Of a stretch of 49,176 nt of DNA, positions 752 to 45,327 are shown piece by piece. The DNA is taken from NCBI RefSeq assembly GCF_903946935.1, contig NZ_CAJAXH010000256.1, positions 1 to 49,176 of the forward strand, written 5' to 3'. This DNA is from an uncultured Thiodictyon sp. GTDB lineage: Bacteria > Pseudomonadota > Gammaproteobacteria > Chromatiales > Chromatiaceae. A model generated the notes under the pieces. The model searched no databases. It was not told the DNA's origin and was given only the letters and a program-made list of their open reading frames with translations. How positions within the stretch are numbered: the first letter of the stretch is position 1; each line of letters starts with the position of its first letter. The position numbers and the translations under genes are program-made.

Positions 752-768
752 ACTGCCGATTTGGCAGT
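752..768. promoter_or_regulatory. Putative activator-binding palindrome, site 1
   Basis: ACTGCC-GATTT-GGCAGT is a perfect 6-bp inverted repeat with a 5-bp spacer. It is centred about 239 bp upstream of the predicted sigma-54 start site near 999. Two further copies follow at 837 and 869. Confidence 0.6.
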
Positions 769-836
769 TCACGCATCCGCTCACCCAGCGCCCTGACCTG
801 GCATTTTTGCAGGCCTGCGGCCGCTTGACGGCGCCC

Positions 837-853
837 ACTGCCATTGCGGCAGC
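837..853. promoter_or_regulatory. Putative activator-binding palindrome, site 2
   Basis: ACTGCC-ATTGC-GGCAGC has the same half-sites as sites 1 and 3 with one deviating end base. Its centre is 85 bp from site 1 and 32 bp from site 3, close to 8 and 3 turns of B-DNA. Confidence 0.5.
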
Positions 854-868
854 CGCCAATCCACGATG

Positions 869-885
869 ACTGCCGATATGGCAGT
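869..885. promoter_or_regulatory. Putative activator-binding palindrome, site 3
   Basis: ACTGCC-GATAT-GGCAGT is a perfect inverted repeat differing from site 1 only at the centre. It is centred about 122 bp upstream of the predicted start site, a usual distance for an enhancer site of a sigma-54 activator. Confidence 0.6.
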
Positions 886-971
886 CGCGCCACCATCCGG
901 CGGCCTTCCAGGCACCCGTCGAAAATCGCTTTTTACATTTTTATCATTATCTTAGATGCTTTTTCGCGAAC

Positions 972-988
972 CTGGCACGGACTTTGTA
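972..988 (+). promoter_or_regulatory. Predicted sigma-54 (-24/-12) promoter
   Basis: The sequence CTGGCACGGACTTTGTA matches the consensus TGGCACG-N4-TTGCW at all but one position (GT for GC at -12). The GG and GT dinucleotides are separated by exactly 10 bp, as required. Transcription would start near 999, about 36 bp before the ATG at 1035. It is oriented toward the secreted-protein operon. The upstream palindromes and a nearby sigma-54 activator gene support the call. Confidence 0.7.
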
Positions 989-3673: not shown

Positions 3674-3725
3674 GTCGCGGCCTGGGGGCCGCTCCTACGC
3701 CGTAGGAGCGGCCCCCGGCCGCGAC
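3674..3725. terminator. Long GC-rich hairpin (repeat family B), likely bidirectional terminator
   Basis: The two arms read GTCGCGGCC-T-GGGGGCCGCT... and its inverse around a CGTAGGAGCGG centre, forming a near-perfect palindrome of about 25 bp per arm. It lies between two convergent genes, the LruC gene ending at 3616 and the activator gene ending at 3772. No strong U-tract follows, so termination is inferred from position and stem strength. It belongs to the dispersed family with copies at 437 and 33549. Confidence 0.55.
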
Positions 3726-3771
3726 GGGTTACCGCAAAGGCTGGTGGCCGGCCTGATGATCAAGGCCGGCG

Positions 3772-5139
3772 TTAGCGGCGGGACGCCGCGTCGACCTTGA
3801 GATCGGCCAACAGCCGATAGAGCGTGCGCTCACCAATCCCCAACACCCGCGCCACCGCGGCACGGGACCCCGGGTGCCGGGCCAGCAGCAGTTGCACATA
3901 GCGCTGCTCGATTTCCGCCAGGGTCGGCTCGTGGTCGAAGGTCAGCGTCACCCCGGTGGTCGCGGTGGCGGACGCGGACGCGGCGGCGCGCGGCAGGGTG
4001 AGGTGCTCCGGATCGATCTTCAGCTTGTTGCCGGACAGGATGATCGCGCGCTCGATCACGTTGCGCAGTTCGCGGACATTGCCCGGCCACGCGTAGTCCA
4101 GCAACGCCTGCATCGCCGCCTCGCTCAGCCGCTTGACGATCCGCTTGGAAAATCCCGGGTGGGCCAAAAAGTGTCTCACCAGCGGCGCGACGTCCGCGCG
4201 GCGTTCCCGCAGCGGGGCCACTGTCACCACAAATGAGTTGAGTCGATACAGCAGGTCCTGGCGGAATTCACCCCGCTGGGACATGCCGTCCAGGTCCCGA
4301 TTGGTGGCGGCGACGATGCGCACCTCCGCCGGCAGGTCCACCGCGCTGCCCAGCCGCCGAAAGCGCTTGGTCTCCAGTACACGCAACAGCTTGGCCTGGA
4401 TCGGGGCGGGGATCTCGCCGATCTCATCCAGAAAGAGGGTGCCGCCGCTGGCCTGCTCGATCAGACCGGGCTTGCGCTGTGCGGCACCGGTGAAGGCCCC
4501 GCGCTCGTGCCCGAACAATTCGGACTCGAAGAGCGTTTCGGGCAGCGAACAACAGTCCACCGCCACCAGCGGCCCCTCGGAGCGCGGACTGAGGCGATGA
4601 ATCTCCTGCGCCACCTTCTCCTTGCCGACCCCGCTTTCGCCCAGGATCAACACCGTCGCCTCGGTTGGGGCCACGGACTTCAGGTCGGCGAGCAATTGGC
4701 GCAGCGGCCCGCTCTCGCCCACCAGCAGGCTTGGCGCCTCCTGCCGCACGACGCTGGTATAGAACTCACCGCGCCGATACAGCAAGGCATTGTCGATGAT
4801 CCGCCGCACCGCCCCCGCCAGTTCATCCCGATCGATCGGTCGGACCAGAAACTCGGTTGCCCCCAGGCGCAGGGTCTGGAGTGCGGTCTCGATCGCGGTC
4901 TCGCTGCACAAGACCAGCAGCGGATAATCCTGAGTCCAGCGCTCGATCAGGGCGGCACCGACATCGGCGGGCCAGGGGGACTCCAACAGGATCAGGTCAG
5001 GGGGCGCGGCGGCCAACGCGCGCGCGGCCGTCCGGCCATCCGCGGCGGTGGCGACCGCATAACCGCGACCTTGCAGGTCGGCACAAAGCTCCCGATGGGA
5101 GTCTTCATCCCCACCCACCAGCAGGAGGCGGTCGGCCAT
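3772..5139 (-). CDS. Sigma-54-dependent response regulator with degenerate receiver
   Basis: A 455-residue NtrC-type enhancer-binding protein. Residues 1-118 form a receiver-like domain in which the phospho-acceptor Asp is replaced by Glu (LILLE53), the conserved Lys by Arg (R100), and one residue of the acidic pocket by Gly. It may therefore not be phosphorylated. Residues about 138-375 are the AAA+ domain: Walker A GESGVGKE (167-174), the sigma-54 contact loop GAFTGA (214-219) and Walker B GGTLFLDEIGE. The C-terminus carries a Fis-type helix-turn-helix (RAAVARVLGIGERTLYRLLA). It begins 12 bp after the phosphatase-like gene, so the two are probably co-transcribed. The nearest matching target is the sigma-54-type promoter with three palindromes at 752-988; this regulatory link is inference. 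Confidence 0.93.
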   Translation of the reverse strand: MADRLLLVGGDEDSHRELCADLQGRGYAVATAADGRTAARALAAAPPDLILLESPWPADVGAALIERWTQDYPLLVLCSETAIETALQTLRLGATEFLVRPIDRDELAGAVRRIIDNALLYRRGEFYTSVVRQEAPSLLVGESGPLRQLLADLKSVAPTEATVLILGESGVGKEKVAQEIHRLSPRSEGPLVAVDCCSLPETLFESELFGHERGAFTGAAQRKPGLIEQASGGTLFLDEIGEIPAPIQAKLLRVLETKRFRRLGSAVDLPAEVRIVAATNRDLDGMSQRGEFRQDLLYRLNSFVVTVAPLRERRADVAPLVRHFLAHPGFSKRIVKRLSEAAMQALLDYAWPGNVRELRNVIERAIILSGNKLKIDPEHLTLPRAAASASATATTGVTLTFDHEPTLAEIEQRYVQLLLARHPGSRAAVARVLGIGERTLYRLLADLKVDAASRR

Positions 5140-5151
5140 GCTGGGGTGAAG

Positions 5152-6306
5152 TTACGCGCCCGATTCGGCGCGCATGAGATGAAACATATCGGTAATCGAC
5201 TGCGGGTCGTTTGGCGGTTCGACATTGGAGAGCAGTGAGGCATTCGAGTCCGGATCATCCGGGTGATAACCGTGCATCCCGGTAATGGGCTTGAGTCCCA
5301 TGTGACTGGGGAGGATCAAGACCCCCGCGTCGACCAGAAAGATCAGCTCACCGAACTGATCGCCCACGAAATCGCAGCCCAATTGCTGGAGTTCCGGCTG
5401 GCGCAGGATGCGCCCCTGCGGCACCTGCTCCAGGAGCGCACCGATGCGCTCGCGGGCGGCCTGGTTGTGGAACCAAAACCGCCCCATGGTGGAGTCATAG
5501 GTGGCGGTGTAATCGCGGCCGAATGTGAGCCCGAGCCCCTCGATCTTGCTCATCAAGTCCAACTGGGTATGGATGGTGGCCATGCCATGGTCGGAGCAGA
5601 CGAACAGTCGTACCTGCGCATAATGCGCCTCGGCCACCCGCATGACCTCTTCGAGCTGGGTCTCGTACCAGGCAAGCTTTTGATCCACCTGCGGACTACC
5701 CTTGCCCACCTCGTGCAGGAGTGCGTCCATGGACGCCATATACAGGAGCGCAAAGGCGATCTTGCCCTGGCTCAGATCGGCCTTGAGCGACTCCAGATTG
5801 ATCGCTTCGGACTGGCGCCAGTCGGATACGTGGTAAGGAATCCCGGCGCGTTGCAGGTGATCGAAGATGTTCTCTCCCCCGTTCATACCGCCGGGTACGA
5901 ACAGGTCTTTTTTCTCGCAATAATCGAACTTGTCTACGTACTTAAACGGGATATTGTAGAGTTGGAAATAGCCCGTGTAGCGATACAGCCGTTTGATCAG
6001 TTTGCTGATCGCATTGCGCACCCGCCCGCGGTCCACCAGTGAGCGCGGCAGCCACCCCAGCAGGCGCAACGGTTTGAACGGGGAGGTCTTGGGCGAATAA
6101 TAGAAAAACGACCAGTGGCGATGTTCGCGCGGCATCAGTCCGGTGAGGATCGAGGGGATGCACGCGGATGAGAAGCCGAACACGGAACGCAACTTGCGCC
6201 GAAACGGCAAGCGCGCCTCCATGAAGCGTCGCCCCTTCAACACCTCCCAGCCAAGTGCGTCGATGAAGACGACGAGTGAAATCGTCGGGGCCTGGTCATT
6301 GTTCAT
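5152..6306 (-). CDS. Alkaline-phosphatase-superfamily phosphodiesterase-like protein
   Basis: About 384 residues related to the type I phosphodiesterase/nucleotide pyrophosphatase branch of the alkaline phosphatase fold. Visible signatures are an N-terminal metal-site Asp (VVFIDALGWE), a nucleophile-region block FGFSSACIPSILTGLMP, a metal-binding CSDHGMATI and a C-terminal GMHGYHPDD. These hydrolases cleave phosphate, sulfate or phosphodiester bonds; the substrate here is unknown. No signal peptide or membrane segment is apparent, so it is probably cytoplasmic. The start at 6306 (MNNDQAP) is preferred because a GAGGAG lies upstream of it; an in-frame ATG at 6327 would overlap that site. The downstream sigma-54 activator gene begins after 12 bp, suggesting an operon. 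Confidence 0.82.
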   Translation of the reverse strand: MNNDQAPTISLVVFIDALGWEVLKGRRFMEARLPFRRKLRSVFGFSSACIPSILTGLMPREHRHWSFFYYSPKTSPFKPLRLLGWLPRSLVDRGRVRNAISKLIKRLYRYTGYFQLYNIPFKYVDKFDYCEKKDLFVPGGMNGGENIFDHLQRAGIPYHVSDWRQSEAINLESLKADLSQGKIAFALLYMASMDALLHEVGKGSPQVDQKLAWYETQLEEVMRVAEAHYAQVRLFVCSDHGMATIHTQLDLMSKIEGLGLTFGRDYTATYDSTMGRFWFHNQAARERIGALLEQVPQGRILRQPELQQLGCDFVGDQFGELIFLVDAGVLILPSHMGLKPITGMHGYHPDDPDSNASLLSNVEPPNDPQSITDMFHLMRAESGA

Positions 6307-6595
6307 GAGAGTCAAGTCGCTCCTCATTTTGCTTCCCGGGGACCGCCGCGGGCCGCGTCCTGTCAGTCAAGACGCCGCGCCACACACTGCACCGTCGAGC
6401 GTCCGAACACCCTCTGCGTGCGCGTGTGGTTTACACCATCGGCGAGACTGAGTCAAGCCAGCAACCTTGCAGGGTGAAAACGGGAATGCACGGACCCGAC
6501 GGCCGCCAAGCCGACTGCGGCCCGGCGACTTGCCGCGACTACCACGCTGTAGTAGAGTCAACCGATAATTCTTAGGCTTTTACATTGGACTTATT

Positions 6596-7669: not shown

Positions 7670-9013
7670 TCAAGCCCGCAGCCTTACCCGCACCAAGGCG
7701 CCACCCAGTGGACTGGCGGCGATCTCCAATTCACCGCCATAGGCGATCGCGATCTCGCGCACCACCGCGAGCCCGATGCCATGGCCGGGGGTGGCCAAGT
7801 CCGCCCGAGCGCCGCGCTCCAGCACGGCACGGGCATGGGCCGCCGGGATGCCGGGGCCGTCGTCCTCCACCCACAGCAGCAGCACCCCGGCCTCCCGTCG
7901 CCCGCCCACCGCGACCCGGGCGCTGCACCACTTATAGGCGTTGTCGAGCAGGTTGCCCAGCACCTCCAGGAGATCGCCCTCCACCCCGCGAAAACTCAAG
8001 TCCGCTGCCACTCCCACGGCGACCTCGACCTGACGCTCCGCGTGCAGTTTGGCGAGCGACGCGACCAGCCGCCCGACCGCCTGGGCCACCGCCACCGGCG
8101 GGCTGAGGGTGAGCACCGGGCCGGCGCGGGCGCGCTCCAACTGATAGGCGACGATCGCCTCCATGCGCCCGATCTGCTCAGTCAACTGCTCGGCCAACGG
8201 ATCGTCCGACGGATCGCTCGACGCTGGGGAGAGCGCCCCGCGCATCACCGCCAGCGGCGTCTTGAGGCTGTGTGCCAGGTCAGCCAAGGCGTTGCCGAGC
8301 CGGGTCTGGCGGGCGGAGGCATGGGCGAGCAGTGCATTGAGGTTGTCGGTGAGTGCGCGCAGTTCGCGTGGATAGCGCCCGCGCAGCCGCTCCCGGTGAC
8401 CGGCCTCCACGGCGGCGACCTCGTCCGCAACCCGCCGCAAGGGAGCCAACCCCCAGCGCAACGCGACGAGCAGGGCGACGAGCAAGAGCGCTGACATGCC
8501 CCCCAGCCAGCCCGCCAGGCTGGTGCGGAAGCCGGCCAACTCACGGCCATACTCCGCCAGGTCCTCGGCCACGCTGAAGGTATAGCCGCGCGGCGTGGGG
8601 CCGACGGTCCAGATCACCCCGTAGCTCTCCACGAAGTAGGCGCGCCCGCTCGCATCGCGCGCCCGGTGGAAACGGCGCACCCCCGGGGCGAGCCCGGTAT
8701 CGAATGGGACGGCCTGGCCGAGGACGGAGACCGAGCGCCAGACCGGCACCCCGGCGACATCGCTCACCTGGCCATAGAGCCCTGAACCGGGCAGGCTGAA
8801 GCGCGCCTCGGCCAGGCTGGAGGGCAGCGTCAGTGCATCGCCCTGACTATCCGCGGCGGCCATCAGTAGGTAGACCTGCCCGAGCAGGCGCGCCTCCCGG
8901 GCGGCGCTGGCACTGGACTGAAAGGCGCGCTCCAGGGCCAGGCTGGTGAGTACGATAAAGACCACCAGCACCAGGGCCGCGGCGAGCGTGACCCGTGCCT
9001 GGAGCGACTTCAA
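7670..9013 (-). CDS. PhoQ-like sensor histidine kinase
   Basis: A 447-residue membrane kinase. It has a transmembrane helix at about residues 8-26, a periplasmic sensor region of about 140 residues, and a second helix at about 168-187, followed by a HAMP-like linker. The dimerisation/phospho-acceptor box is LADLAHSLKTPLAVMRG with His248. The ATP-binding part shows N (GNLLDNAYKW), G1 (VEDDGPGIP) and G2 (GHGIGLAVV) boxes. The LAHSLKTPL form of the H-box is typical of the PhoQ group. Its start overlaps the stop of the upstream response regulator by 4 bp (ATGA), so they are translationally coupled. The signal is unknown; co-transcription with PepSY-like and His-rich exported proteins hints at a cation or envelope signal, which is inference. 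Confidence 0.93.
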   Translation of the reverse strand: MKSLQARVTLAAALVLVVFIVLTSLALERAFQSSASAAREARLLGQVYLLMAAADSQGDALTLPSSLAEARFSLPGSGLYGQVSDVAGVPVWRSVSVLGQAVPFDTGLAPGVRRFHRARDASGRAYFVESYGVIWTVGPTPRGYTFSVAEDLAEYGRELAGFRTSLAGWLGGMSALLLVALLVALRWGLAPLRRVADEVAAVEAGHRERLRGRYPRELRALTDNLNALLAHASARQTRLGNALADLAHSLKTPLAVMRGALSPASSDPSDDPLAEQLTEQIGRMEAIVAYQLERARAGPVLTLSPPVAVAQAVGRLVASLAKLHAERQVEVAVGVAADLSFRGVEGDLLEVLGNLLDNAYKWCSARVAVGGRREAGVLLLWVEDDGPGIPAAHARAVLERGARADLATPGHGIGLAVVREIAIAYGGELEIAASPLGGALVRVRLRA

Positions 9014-22337: not shown

Positions 22338-23732
22338 TTACTTGTGCTCGACCGCCGCGCCCAGCTTGTCGCGCCAGCCCGGGAAGAGCTTGTCGGCGTC
22401 GTGCGGGAAGGACGCGAAGGCACGGGCGAACTCCTTGTGCTCCTTGGCGAACTCGATCGGGTCGGCGCCGGCCTTCCAGCACTCGTAGGACTGACGCAGC
22501 GAAATCGCACCGGCCGCCGGGGAGTCGACGTGGCCGTAGGCGCCGCCGCCGGCGGTGTTGATGACGTTGCCGTGACCCAGGTTCTCGAAGAAGCCGGGCA
22601 GACGCAGCGCATTCATGCCACCGGAGATGATCGGGGTGGTGGGCTTCATGCCGTACCACTTTTGGAAATAGACCGGACCCTGGCACTCGTCGCGCTCAAT
22701 CATGTAGGCGATGATCTTGTCGTCCGCGCCGCCTTCCATCTTGCCATAGCCCATGGTCCCGACGTGGATGCCGGAGGCCCCTTGCAGGCGGGAGATCTTG
22801 GCCAGCACGAAGGCGGTATAGCCGCGCCGTGAGGACGGCGAGGTGATCATGCCGTGGCCGGCACGGTGATAGTGCAGGTACTGGTTGGGGTACTGACGGC
22901 GCGCGGTGGTGATCATGCCAGGGCCGCCGACGAAGCCATCGACCAGGAAGGCAACCTTGTCCGCGTCGGGTCCAAAGGTCTCCAGGATGAAGTCCGCCCG
23001 CGCGCACATCTCGTAGTGGTCGTCGGCGGTGATGTTGGCGGAGAACAGCTTGGCCTCGCCGGTCTCGTCCTGGGCGCGCTTGAGCGAGTCATAGACCAAC
23101 GGATAGACCTTCTTGGCCGGGCAGAACACCTGATTGCCCTGGGGCTCGTCGTTCTTGATGAAGTCGCCACCCAGCCAGAACTGGTAGGCCGCGTGGGCGA
23201 AGGGCTCGGGGCGCAGGCCGAGCTTGGGCTTGATGATGGTGCCGGCGATATAGCCGCCATCCTTGACCGGACGGCCGAGGATGCGCCACAGGTCGGAGAT
23301 GTCCTTGGCGGGCCCGTCGAACAACTGGATGGCGCGCTCCGGGACATAGAAGTCCTGGATTTGACCGTATTCGATATCGCCCATGCCCTGGTTGTTGCCG
23401 ATGACGAGTGTCAGGAAGGACACGATCATCATGCGCCCGTCGGTGATGTTGCGGTCGAACAGCTCCAGCGGATAGGCGATCCGCATGTCCTCCTTGGCCT
23501 CGTCGATGTAATAGACCAGCGCGTCGACGCCCTTGGTGAAGTCGTCGGTGGTTGAGACCTCGACATTGGTGCCGGTGGAGGACTCGGCGGCAAAGTGGGC
23601 GGCGGCCTCCAGGTAACCGATGCCGCCCTTGGGCTTCATGCGATAGGCGACAAGGATGTGCTTGCCGCCCGCGATCAGGTCGGCTTCGGTCAGGCTAAGG
23701 TCGGAGTAACGCGCGGACTGGTCAAGCGACAT
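22338..23732 (-). CDS. cbbM: Form II RuBisCO (ribulose-1,5-bisphosphate carboxylase/oxygenase)
   Basis: A 464-residue form II large subunit, full length for the group. The catalytic IIKPK (Lys168) and the carbamylated-lysine block [14 protein letters not shown] (Lys193 with Asp195 and Glu196) are intact. HYHRAGHG and loop 6 (GYGKMEG) are present, as is [13 protein letters not shown] near the C-terminus. It fixes CO2 onto ribulose bisphosphate in the Calvin cycle. No small-subunit gene accompanies it, as expected for form II. It is divergent from the LysR regulator CbbR, 262 bp away, and followed by a terminator and then cbbQ. Form II enzymes suit low-oxygen, high-CO2 conditions, in line with a purple sulfur bacterium. 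Confidence 0.98.
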
Positions 23733-29072: not shown

Positions 29073-30533
29073 TCAGAGGGTCTTGAGGTACTCGATCAAC
29101 GCCCGGCGGTCGGCGGCCGACAGGGTGTCGCCGAAGCGGTGCCCGCCGTTGCCATACCCCTTGCCAGTGCTGTCGTAGACCTGATCGCACTCGTCCCAAC
29201 TCATGGCGGCGGACTTGCCCTGGGACAGGGTGTCGTAGGCCCAGCCGAGCGACTCGGGGTCATAGATGGGCGCCCCGTCGGCGGTTCGTCGCGCTCGCCA
29301 GTAGGCCGGGCGCGCCGACGGGTCCAACAGGGCGGCCAGGGTCGGCACCGCGTCGTTGTGCAAATAGGGGGCGGTGGCCCAGACGCCGTCGAGCGGCGGG
29401 GCGACATAACCCAGGGCGGGGGTGAGCTGCGACCGTTCGCCATAGTAGGACTGCCGGAACCAGGCGCGGAAGCGGTCCAGGTCATTGTAAGTCGCGCGGG
29501 CCAGTGCCGGATCGGTCCCCACCTCGCCCAGGGGCACCACCAGATTGGGATAGCGCCAGTCCTCGCCGTTGGTGCCGTGGCAGCCTTGGCACTGCGACCG
29601 ATAGAGGGAATAACCCCGCTCCGCTAGAGCCTGATCAATGGCGTAAGGATACTTGGGCGGCGCCAGGGTCGCCAGATAGGCGCGGATATCCACAAACCAG
29701 AGGTCCATGGCGCTGGCCTCGGCCACCGAGTCGGTGCAGGTGGTGTTGGCGAGCAGCAGGTGGCGGGCGAGGTCCCCGCGCCCCTCCCCGCTGTAGAACA
29801 GTGCGTGCTTCTTGCGCAGGTTCCACCATGGCGGTATCGCCACCGGCAGGGCCGGTTGCGGCGGCGGCGCCAGCAGCGGCTTATCGCTCCAGGCCAGGGT
29901 CTTGGGATCGTGCTGGGCCATCAGCGCGAGGGTGGAGTGAGCGGCGGTGTTCACCCCCACCGTGTCGGTCAGCAGGTCACCGGACAGGCGCGTGATGCGC
30001 TCCGACCAGCGCCGCCACTGCGCCCGCTCGGCCTGGCCGGTCACCAAGGCCCCGGTCGCCGCAATCTCAACCGCCGGGTCCTGGGTCATGTCCAGAAAGG
30101 CATTACCCAGCCCCATGATGAGCCGGCCGTCGAGCGTCGCGGCATGGCAGGCGAGACAGTTGGTACTCACCAGCTCCACCCCGCTGGGGGCCTGGTGCGC
30201 GCTCAGCATGTAGGGCAGTTCACGATTACGCCCGCTGCGCCCAGGAAATTGGGGTCCCGGCGCGCCCCGTGGCTTGGACCTCGCCACCGCCTTGGCATAG
30301 GCGTTGTAGGGCAGACCGCAGGTCAGGGCCGCGCGGTTGACCAGAACGTCATAACCCTTCTGCGCATCGCCGGGACGCTGGGGATAGGCGGGTATCCGAC
30401 CCACCTCGGCCTTGGCCAAGAACTGATCGCCGCCCCCCTGGCCCTGACGGCCGGAGTCACACCCGGCCAGCCAGGCGAGCGCCGTCATTCCCGCCGCAAA
30501 CGCCCGGAATCCGCAGACAAACCGGCGCCGCAC
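29073..30533 (-). CDS. Dihaem c-type cytochrome lipoprotein, RoxA-like architecture
   Basis: A 486-residue exported protein. The N-terminus ends in a lipobox (LAWLAGC, Cys about 25). Two haem-binding motifs are visible, CLACH (about residue 129) and CQGCH (about residue 318), separated by roughly 190 residues. The long spacing and the PYLHNDAVPTLAALLDP segment recall the dihaem peroxidase-like and rubber-oxygenase (RoxA-like) families. The probable role is periplasmic electron transfer or an oxidative reaction; the substrate is unknown and RoxA activity is not implied. The start codon is uncertain because ATG at 30533 or the in-frame ATG just before the lipoprotein signal both work. It begins 11 bp after the M48 protease gene on the same strand. 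Confidence 0.85.
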   Translation of the reverse strand: MRRRFVCGFRAFAAGMTALAWLAGCDSGRQGQGGGDQFLAKAEVGRIPAYPQRPGDAQKGYDVLVNRAALTCGLPYNAYAKAVARSKPRGAPGPQFPGRSGRNRELPYMLSAHQAPSGVELVSTNCLACHAATLDGRLIMGLGNAFLDMTQDPAVEIAATGALVTGQAERAQWRRWSERITRLSGDLLTDTVGVNTAAHSTLALMAQHDPKTLAWSDKPLLAPPPQPALPVAIPPWWNLRKKHALFYSGEGRGDLARHLLLANTTCTDSVAEASAMDLWFVDIRAYLATLAPPKYPYAIDQALAERGYSLYRSQCQGCHGTNGEDWRYPNLVVPLGEVGTDPALARATYNDLDRFRAWFRQSYYGERSQLTPALGYVAPPLDGVWATAPYLHNDAVPTLAALLDPSARPAYWRARRTADGAPIYDPESLGWAYDTLSQGKSAAMSWDECDQVYDSTGKGYGNGGHRFGDTLSAADRRALIEYLKTL

Positions 30534-45255: not shown

Positions 45256-45327
45256 GTGGGAGCGGCTTCAGCCGCGACGAGCCCACGCCCGCCTGCGAGC
45301 TCGCGTCGCGGCTGAAGCCGCTCCCAC
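45256..45327. repeat. Dispersed palindromic repeat family A, second copy
   Basis: It is 72 bp with perfect 23-bp arms identical to those at 519-590. The loop differs. It abuts the truncated Rpn-type remnant. Confidence 0.9.

Follow-up and report, generated by a model that had tools for sequence, protein, structure and literature searches.

The region at positions 752-988 of a 49,176-nt stretch of DNA from an uncultured Thiodictyon sp. (the whole stretch analysed, hereafter the window) very probably comprises the enhancer and promoter of an operon encoding two small proteins (P1 and P2) and a LruC protein; as read from the sequence, it would be driven through sigma-54 by the activator encoded at 3772-5139, whose targets would be matrix-building proteins. 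In the proposed mechanism, dimers of this activator would bind three palindromes that share one helical face, arranged as a pair 32 bp apart with a third site 83-85 bp further upstream. IHF would bend the DNA between the palindromes and the -24/-12 element, where the AAA+ hexamer of the activator would open the sigma-54 polymerase. The activator is probably independent of ordinary phosphorylation, as receiver residues are missing. The extracellular matrix would be built by P1, P2 and LruC, together with linked exopolysaccharide genes in some genomes; a further target in the window's genome and one relative would be a small PEP-tailed protein with an exosortase. The features are collected in Table 1.

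Table 1. Features of the candidate regulon in the window and in related loci.
Feature	Position	Strand	Remarks
Distal enhancer palindrome (candidate), ACTGCCGATTTGGCAGT	752..768	.	Centre -213 from T of -24 element
Middle enhancer palindrome (candidate), ACTGCCATTGCGGCAGC	837..853	.	Centre -128; one mismatch
Proximal enhancer palindrome (candidate), ACTGCCGATATGGCAGT	869..885	.	Centre -96; 32 bp from middle palindrome
IHF-like site, TATCATTATCTTA	942..954	+	One mismatch to WATCAANNNNTTR
Putative -24/-12 sigma-54 promoter, TGGCACGGACTTTGTA	973..988	+	TGGCAC or TGGCAT in 13/13 promoters
P1, 127 aa	1035..1418	+	Hydrophobic N-terminus, then predicted seven-strand Ig/transthyretin-like beta-sandwich
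P2, 149 aa	1449..1898	+	Hydrophobic N-terminus, then predicted all-beta domain; no family
LruC protein, 553 aa	1955..3616	+	DUF4114 and LruC/DUF4842 domains
Sigma-54 enhancer-binding protein, 455 aa	3772..5139	-	Degenerate receiver, AAA+ with GAFTGA, Fis-type HTH; probable cognate activator
Polyprenyl sugar transferase, membrane-like stretch, C-terminal P1 domain	L153 5240-6253; L081 12105-13124; L007 2231-3250	minus for L081
Contig 290 locus	L082 5175-7155		Full site ACTGCCGGTTTGGCAGA; by eye, a right half-site 32 bp further on; TGGCGCGAGTTTTGCT at 126 bp from centre
98-aa protein ending GIPEPPWLLLAAVPFILLLKQKFQK..	L082 5372-5668		PEP, hydrophobic stretch and basic tail by eye; no model match
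Exosortase	L082 5665-7155		PF09721 30.5 vs 25.7; TIGR04178 30.7 vs 23; XrtZ 417 vs 475 (below cut-off)
Distant near-perfect sigma-54 elements	L103 4951; L103 7506; L012 5550; L013 7190; L019 7530; L009 7790

Architecture of the promoter region

On re-checking, the three palindromes were found exactly where the original prediction had placed them, with centres 85, 32 and 117 bp apart as described. The predicted GG-N10-G spacing of the -24/-12 element is likewise exact, but the start given for it, 972, was one base early. The element carries GT, not GC, at -12, and 46 nt separate its end from the ATG of P1. RpoN is encoded in the window's genome.

The exact sequence ACTGCC-N5-GGCAGT occurs twice in this 6.0-Mb genome, both times at this locus. 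With up to one mismatch, 28 places were found in the genome, as many as for a reversed control pattern, and the window contains two -24/-12-like sites (up to two mismatches) against a shuffle mean of 2.4, so that neither is in excess. Since each is at background frequency, single palindromes or -24/-12-like sites are uninformative and it is the cluster that counts: three palindromes (8/8 core, at least 11/12 matches) inside 330 bp had a mean of 0.0003 and a maximum of 1 in 3000 dinucleotide shuffles. The cluster of three palindromes and a -24/-12 element at 752-988 is real. Chance or a dispersed repeat was rejected as its origin, because the exact sites are confined to this locus and the geometry is conserved; an RNA hairpin or terminator was rejected because the palindromes lie upstream of the predicted transcript start.

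The IHF-like site lies between the proximal palindrome and the promoter element, and was so called by comparison with WATCAANNNNTTR, which we take to be the IHF consensus. Of 13 related promoters, 10 have a similar site (at most one mismatch) in the 90 bp preceding -24, against 1.45 (sd 1.09) in shuffles, none of 300 reaching 10, for promoters that are related by descent and a region that is AT-rich. In six of the nine promoters of the first group defined below, the site is on the same strand and begins at -29 to -31. IHF function is tied mainly to RpoN-dependent promoters in a passage of PMC7962754.

Upstream of the cluster, a transposase remnant is probable at 93-446 (seen by eye; L095 15492-15779 matches it at 52%), and the inverted repeat GGGAGCGGCTTCAGCCGCGA at 521-590 is found again at 45258-45325.

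Conservation of the sites and their spacing

The promoter set (n = 13) consists of 12 P1 or LruC promoters of the family and locus L011, one contig of a MAG labelled Competibacteraceae. It includes all P1/LruC promoters with readable upstream DNA in the nine family genomes that carry the activator, the two copies in G125 and the P1 promoter of G152 ending at contig edges; the solitary sugar transferase-P1 fusion gene on contig 217 of the window's genome, upstream of which no TGCC-N5-GGCA-type site was found, is excluded. Nine promoters, eight before P1 plus L011, form the first group; the other four are LruC-only promoters of genus g24.

The palindromes had been predicted to be conserved with orthologous LruC operons, and sites do precede a -24/-12 element in all 13 promoters: every one has a TGGCAC/T-type element (scores 14.7-15.5) and at least two sites. 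In total, 34 sites were counted (core at least 7/8, at least 9/12 overall), whereas 500 dinucleotide shuffles averaged 0.77 and never exceeded 4; 12 of the 13 promoters contain two sites spaced by exactly 32 bp, an arrangement that none of the 500 shuffles produced. The -12 element is GT rather than the preferred GC in 10/13.

Within the first group, 92-105 bp separate -24 from the nearest upstream site, the middle site is present in 8/9 (L011 has the right half-site only, by eye), and the distal site is centred at -208 to -213 in 7/9 and at -222 in L011; it was not found in the G155 promoter. The seven family promoters with all three sites have a distal spacing of 83, 84 or 85 bp. The helical phasing proposed for the upstream sites is thereby upheld, the conserved spacings of 83-85 and 32 bp corresponding to 7.9-8.1 and 3.05 turns at 10.5 bp per turn. 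In the g24 promoters the sites form pairs or a triplet with 32-bp steps, and the one closest to -24 is 240-263 bp upstream of it. The contig tail of G152 also shows the two proximal sites, separated by 32 bp, and a second, unlinked operon copy in G107 has sites as well. As the flanks around the conserved sites, spacings and promoter have diverged, the pattern looks like selection and not recent copying.

In L011, the activator gene is divergent from the sites and from the same three genes in a new order, LruC-P1-P2, with the LruC match limited to residues 264-553. Its full-site centres are 117 bp apart (85+32), and the right half-site stands at the expected middle position (by eye). Single TGCC-N5-GGCA cores are not enriched in this genome (74 vs 102 for the control).

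The pair pattern TGCC-N5-GGCA-N19-TGCC-N5-GGCA (at most one mismatch) gave 17 forward matches in the nine activator genomes of the family, compared with 4 for the control, and 14 of the 17 fall at P1/LruC promoters; G125, whose upstream DNA is cut by contig ends, had none. At this mismatch level it was also matched in 34 of 201 genomes that do not carry the activator. Without mismatches, nine forward matches were obtained across 210 genomes, six of them at P1/LruC promoters.

The probable cognate activator

In the window, the activator gene is convergent with the P1-P2-LruC operon. Between the convergent LruC and activator genes, at 3680-3730, lies a long inverted repeat with TAGGAGCGGC arms, probably a two-way terminator or REP-like element; arms similar to TAGGAGCGGC occur at 462 and 33557.

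The activator (E<=1e-160) was found in 9 of 210 family genomes, with 74-86% identity outside the window's genome, and in a class-wide sample of 369 genomes at the same threshold in the window's genome only. The same nine genomes encode a LruC orthologue (63-100% identity) and P1 (at least 54% identity). LruC matches at E<=1e-20 were obtained in 16/210 family genomes, nine orthologues and seven distant or partial; six of these seven genomes have no activator match at E<=1e-90, and G018 has a 47% paralogue only. In G023, remnants of LruC (internal stop), P1 and P2 are left (L158 5369-6472) and the activator is absent. LruC is 80% identical in loci L005 and L006 of uncultured Thiodictyon. The proposal that 3772-5139 encodes the cognate regulator gains support from its presence in 9/9 genomes with orthologous LruC and 0/201 others (Fisher value 5e-16, kinship ignored), a co-occurrence that is not independent evidence because all activator genomes but one (L011) belong to one family. 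Since activator and orthologous LruC share the same nine genomes, the palindromes are most likely the enhancer sites of this activator.

The AAA+ sigma-54 domain and Fis-type HTH are present, ERGAFTGA is intact in 10/10 activator orthologues, and the recognition-helix stretch GERTLYR is identical in all ten. Eight sister paralogues (46-50% identity) have SER[SN][VI]YR in place of GERTLYR (8/8), and no palindrome with at most one mismatch was found at the sister loci L030-L055 (about 1.5 kb flanks).

The receiver is degenerate. Its positions were assigned by comparison with the sister paralogues and by NtrC numbering. The complete phosphorylation set (acidic pair, phospho-Asp, Thr/Ser, Lys) was found in none of ten aligned orthologues: no orthologue has an acidic residue 10, residue 53 is Glu in five and Asp in five, residue 79 is Ser in two, Gly in six and Asp in two, and residue 100 (Lys) is Arg in three. 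Because EDD and the phospho-Asp are kept in 8/8 sisters, the loss belongs to the activator subfamily. As the receiver lacks essential residues, ordinary phosphorylation control is unlikely, and the activator is probably not switched in this way.

No conserved neighbour of the activator was found in the 16 loci searched, several of which are incomplete. The phosphodiesterase gene at 5152-6327 was not adopted as a core partner, because it is near the activator in two of these loci only (G178 and G107).

Competing explanations

The palindromes might be enhancers of a sigma-54 promoter that serve another activator, with 3772-5139 regulating something else. A search with 3772-5139 gave 106 first-look candidates in the window's genome, and activators of the Fis type are difficult to distinguish. 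On the other hand, the subfamily of 3772-5139, the one profiled, tracks the operon, the eight sisters differ in recognition helix, and no palindrome (at most one mismatch) was found at the sister loci L030-L055; we regard a different activator as improbable. That the palindromes bind an unrelated repressor or other DNA-binding protein, the -24/-12 element being used little or not at all, is more improbable still: perfect inverted repeats with a 5-bp centre would suit many dimeric regulators, and the -12 is GT, not GC, but the distance of the nearest site from -24 in the nine first-group promoters is far for a repressor, the helical spacing is fixed, often with an IHF-like site in between, and six distant P1-LruC promoters also carry strong -24/-12 elements.

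It also seems very unlikely that the system is the known PEP-CTERM/PrsR regulon in another guise. The logic is the same (enhancer-binding protein, cis-site, sigma-54, exopolysaccharide, exosortase), such a site and PrsR are described in a section of PMC1569441, and the activator scores 321.5 bits on the PrsR model (TIGR02915). The PrsR cut-off is far higher, at 502.6, the NtrC model gives the activator an equal score (322.8), and three other orthologues reach 311-325 bits on the PrsR model. Moreover, LruC has no PEP-CTERM match, the neighbouring kinase (7670-9013) scores best on PhoQ with PrsK not among the best 25 of 61 families, and the early motif run in PMC1569441 gave TTTACA, the comparison with TGCC-N5-GGCA covering this early motif.

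Operon products and their link to exopolysaccharide genes

P1, P2 and LruC may be secreted, as their hydrophobic N-termini suggest. P1 matched no Pfam family above cut-off. Its sandwich is modelled with a pLDDT of about 96 over residues 61-127, and a structure search gave weak likeness to sandwiches of the transthyretin type and to a carbohydrate-binding module (E 1e-3 at best, TM about 0.4). For P2, five structure models had mean pLDDT values of 38-75, and a weak match to 5uc0, COG5400 (E 4e-3), came from a model of uneven confidence. The structure searches with the P1 and P2 models yielded no function for either protein. LruC scores 288.3 bits on TIGR04456, whose cut-off is 36, and a PDB sequence search gave one weak match, the putative lipoprotein 3oqq (E 2.6e-5).

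Three genomes, namely the window's genome (contig 217), G107 and Chromatiaceae SJ691, encode a Bac_transf sugar transferase that carries a P1 domain at its C-terminus; the G107 fusion gene sits within the operon, flanked by P1 and P2. In g24, as read in G071, G102 and G150, P1-P2 is served by a separate enhancer-promoter and is oriented divergently to the activator gene. At loci L080 and L099, P1-P2 is followed by genes for GT4, GT2, a hexapeptide transferase, a Wzy_C protein and a multi-membrane protein, each Pfam family having been scanned in one of the two loci. The multi-membrane protein, which has no Pfam match, may be a flippase. Co-transcription of P2 and the glycosyltransferases is not certain, because they are about 370-390 bp apart.

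Elsewhere, the window encodes a RuBisCO large chain (22338-23732) and a RoxA-like cytochrome c protein (29073-30533).

A probable second target

The 25 other places in the window's genome with a site of at most one mismatch were all read, and -24/-12 elements were scored 60-320 bp away on both sides. Two places, on contig 290 (locus L082) and at L178, reached a score of at least 14.5. On contig 290, the site and promoter precede the genes for the PEP-tailed protein and the exosortase, with a polysaccharide flippase-like gene on the opposite strand; judged by this arrangement, the pair is a probable second target of the activator. G178 has the same arrangement of site, promoter, PEP-tailed protein and exosortase (94% identical), which is not independent because its upstream DNA is nearly identical to that of the window's genome. 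No such site was found upstream of a 66% identical exosortase in G086, a genome that does not carry the activator, and sites combined with a -24/-12 element occur at just 2 of the 11 exosortase places of activator genomes, which speaks against a general exosortase role.

A self-contained regulon of three proteins had been proposed. The operon stands as a probable target; the regulon would have to be extended by at least one more probable target, the PEP-tailed protein and exosortase on another contig, and in g24 exopolysaccharide-type genes follow P1-P2 behind the same sites.

Distant P1-LruC promoters

Eight distant promoters with a P1 homologue were compared, and six of them have a strong -24/-12 element (15.5): L009 (Methylococcales), L012, L013 and L019 (close relatives), and two in L103. 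At the other two loci, L101 (260 bp readable) and L157, no -24/-12 element was convincing. LruC loci that do not encode P1 have either no convincing element (Malikia L014/L015, L016, L021) or a borderline one (Vibrio L017/L018, L010, L020; score 14.0, which about 5% of shuffles reach).

No TGCC-N5-GGCA site was found in the six strong promoters. They contain TTGCA-N3-TGCAA-like sites (at least 8/10); five of the six promoters have theirs at -93 or -94, and the L009 site is weak (8/10, at -244). Mononucleotide shuffles (1000) gave a mean of 0.44 promoters and a maximum of 3, a statistic that flatters the motif because it was chosen after inspection and the control was mononucleotide shuffling. 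The motif, which resembles what we take to be the LuxO site, was found in 0/13 promoters of the TGCC-N5-GGCA set. The proximal site of the first group lies at -92 to -97 (-105 in one), vs -93/-94 for the TTGCA type.

It is possible, at somewhat less than even confidence, that P1-LruC constitutes a widespread sigma-54 matrix system in which the promoter, and roughly the distance of the proximal site, were kept and the enhancer was exchanged, TGCC-N5-GGCA with a phosphorylation-blind activator in one lineage and TTGCA-N3-TGCAA in another, and that a single switch, the activator, joins LruC-type proteins to the synthesis of exopolysaccharide and to sorting by exosortase.

Relation to known systems and significance

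A sigma-54 cis-site before proteobacterial PEP-CTERM genes, with a profile matching that of PrsR/PrsK/PrsT, is described in PMC1569441 (Haft et al., 2006), and one such PEP-CTERM gene (pepA) was shown to depend on RpoN in PMC9850573. The candidate regulon resembles the PEP-CTERM/EpsH and PrsR system in its NtrC-like activator, its upstream motif with a -24/-12 element, the agreement of site and activator profiles, and its exopolysaccharide and exosortase genes. In contrast to that system, the activator belongs to another subfamily with a degenerate receiver, the sites are palindromic TGCC-N5-GGCA in fixed groups, the main target is LruC and not PEP-CTERM proteins, and no PrsK was seen beside the activator.

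The combination of a receiver that lacks the phosphorylation set with a sigma-54 AAA+ domain is shared with FleQ, an activator with a degenerate receiver, and FleQ structures are among the solved relatives of 3772-5139. The c-di-GMP motif of FleQ is LFRS; c-di-GMP control of this kind was sought by this motif, which is not visible in the linker of 3772-5139 (APSLLVG), and the targets differ.

LruC/DUF4842 proteins are mentioned for Leptospira, Bacteroides, Vibrio and Shewanella in a portion of PMC8280789, and DUF4842 also for ice-binding proteins in one of PMC9957290; in these portions both sources call it a domain of unknown function. The LruC protein of the window likewise has the DUF4842/LruC domain at its C-terminus, but combines it with DUF4114 and is encoded in an operon with P1 and P2. 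A limited literature search found no earlier paper on a P1-P2-LruC regulon.

Sigma-54 is argued in a part of PMC3162934 to control the bacterial exterior in general. Our analysis suggests that the regulon fits this theme with a different activator, site and cargo; its receiver is unusual, and the enhancer may have been exchanged. For LruC/DUF4842 proteins, known from Leptospira to Bacteroides and Vibrio, it would provide a precise cis-code of site, spacing, promoter and activator, and it ties these proteins to exopolysaccharide and exosortase genes. It would also offer two natural examples: an activator subfamily whose DNA sites and targets remained conserved despite the loss of its set of phosphorylation residues, and related operons that keep a sigma-54 promoter yet seem to have exchanged the enhancer sequence.
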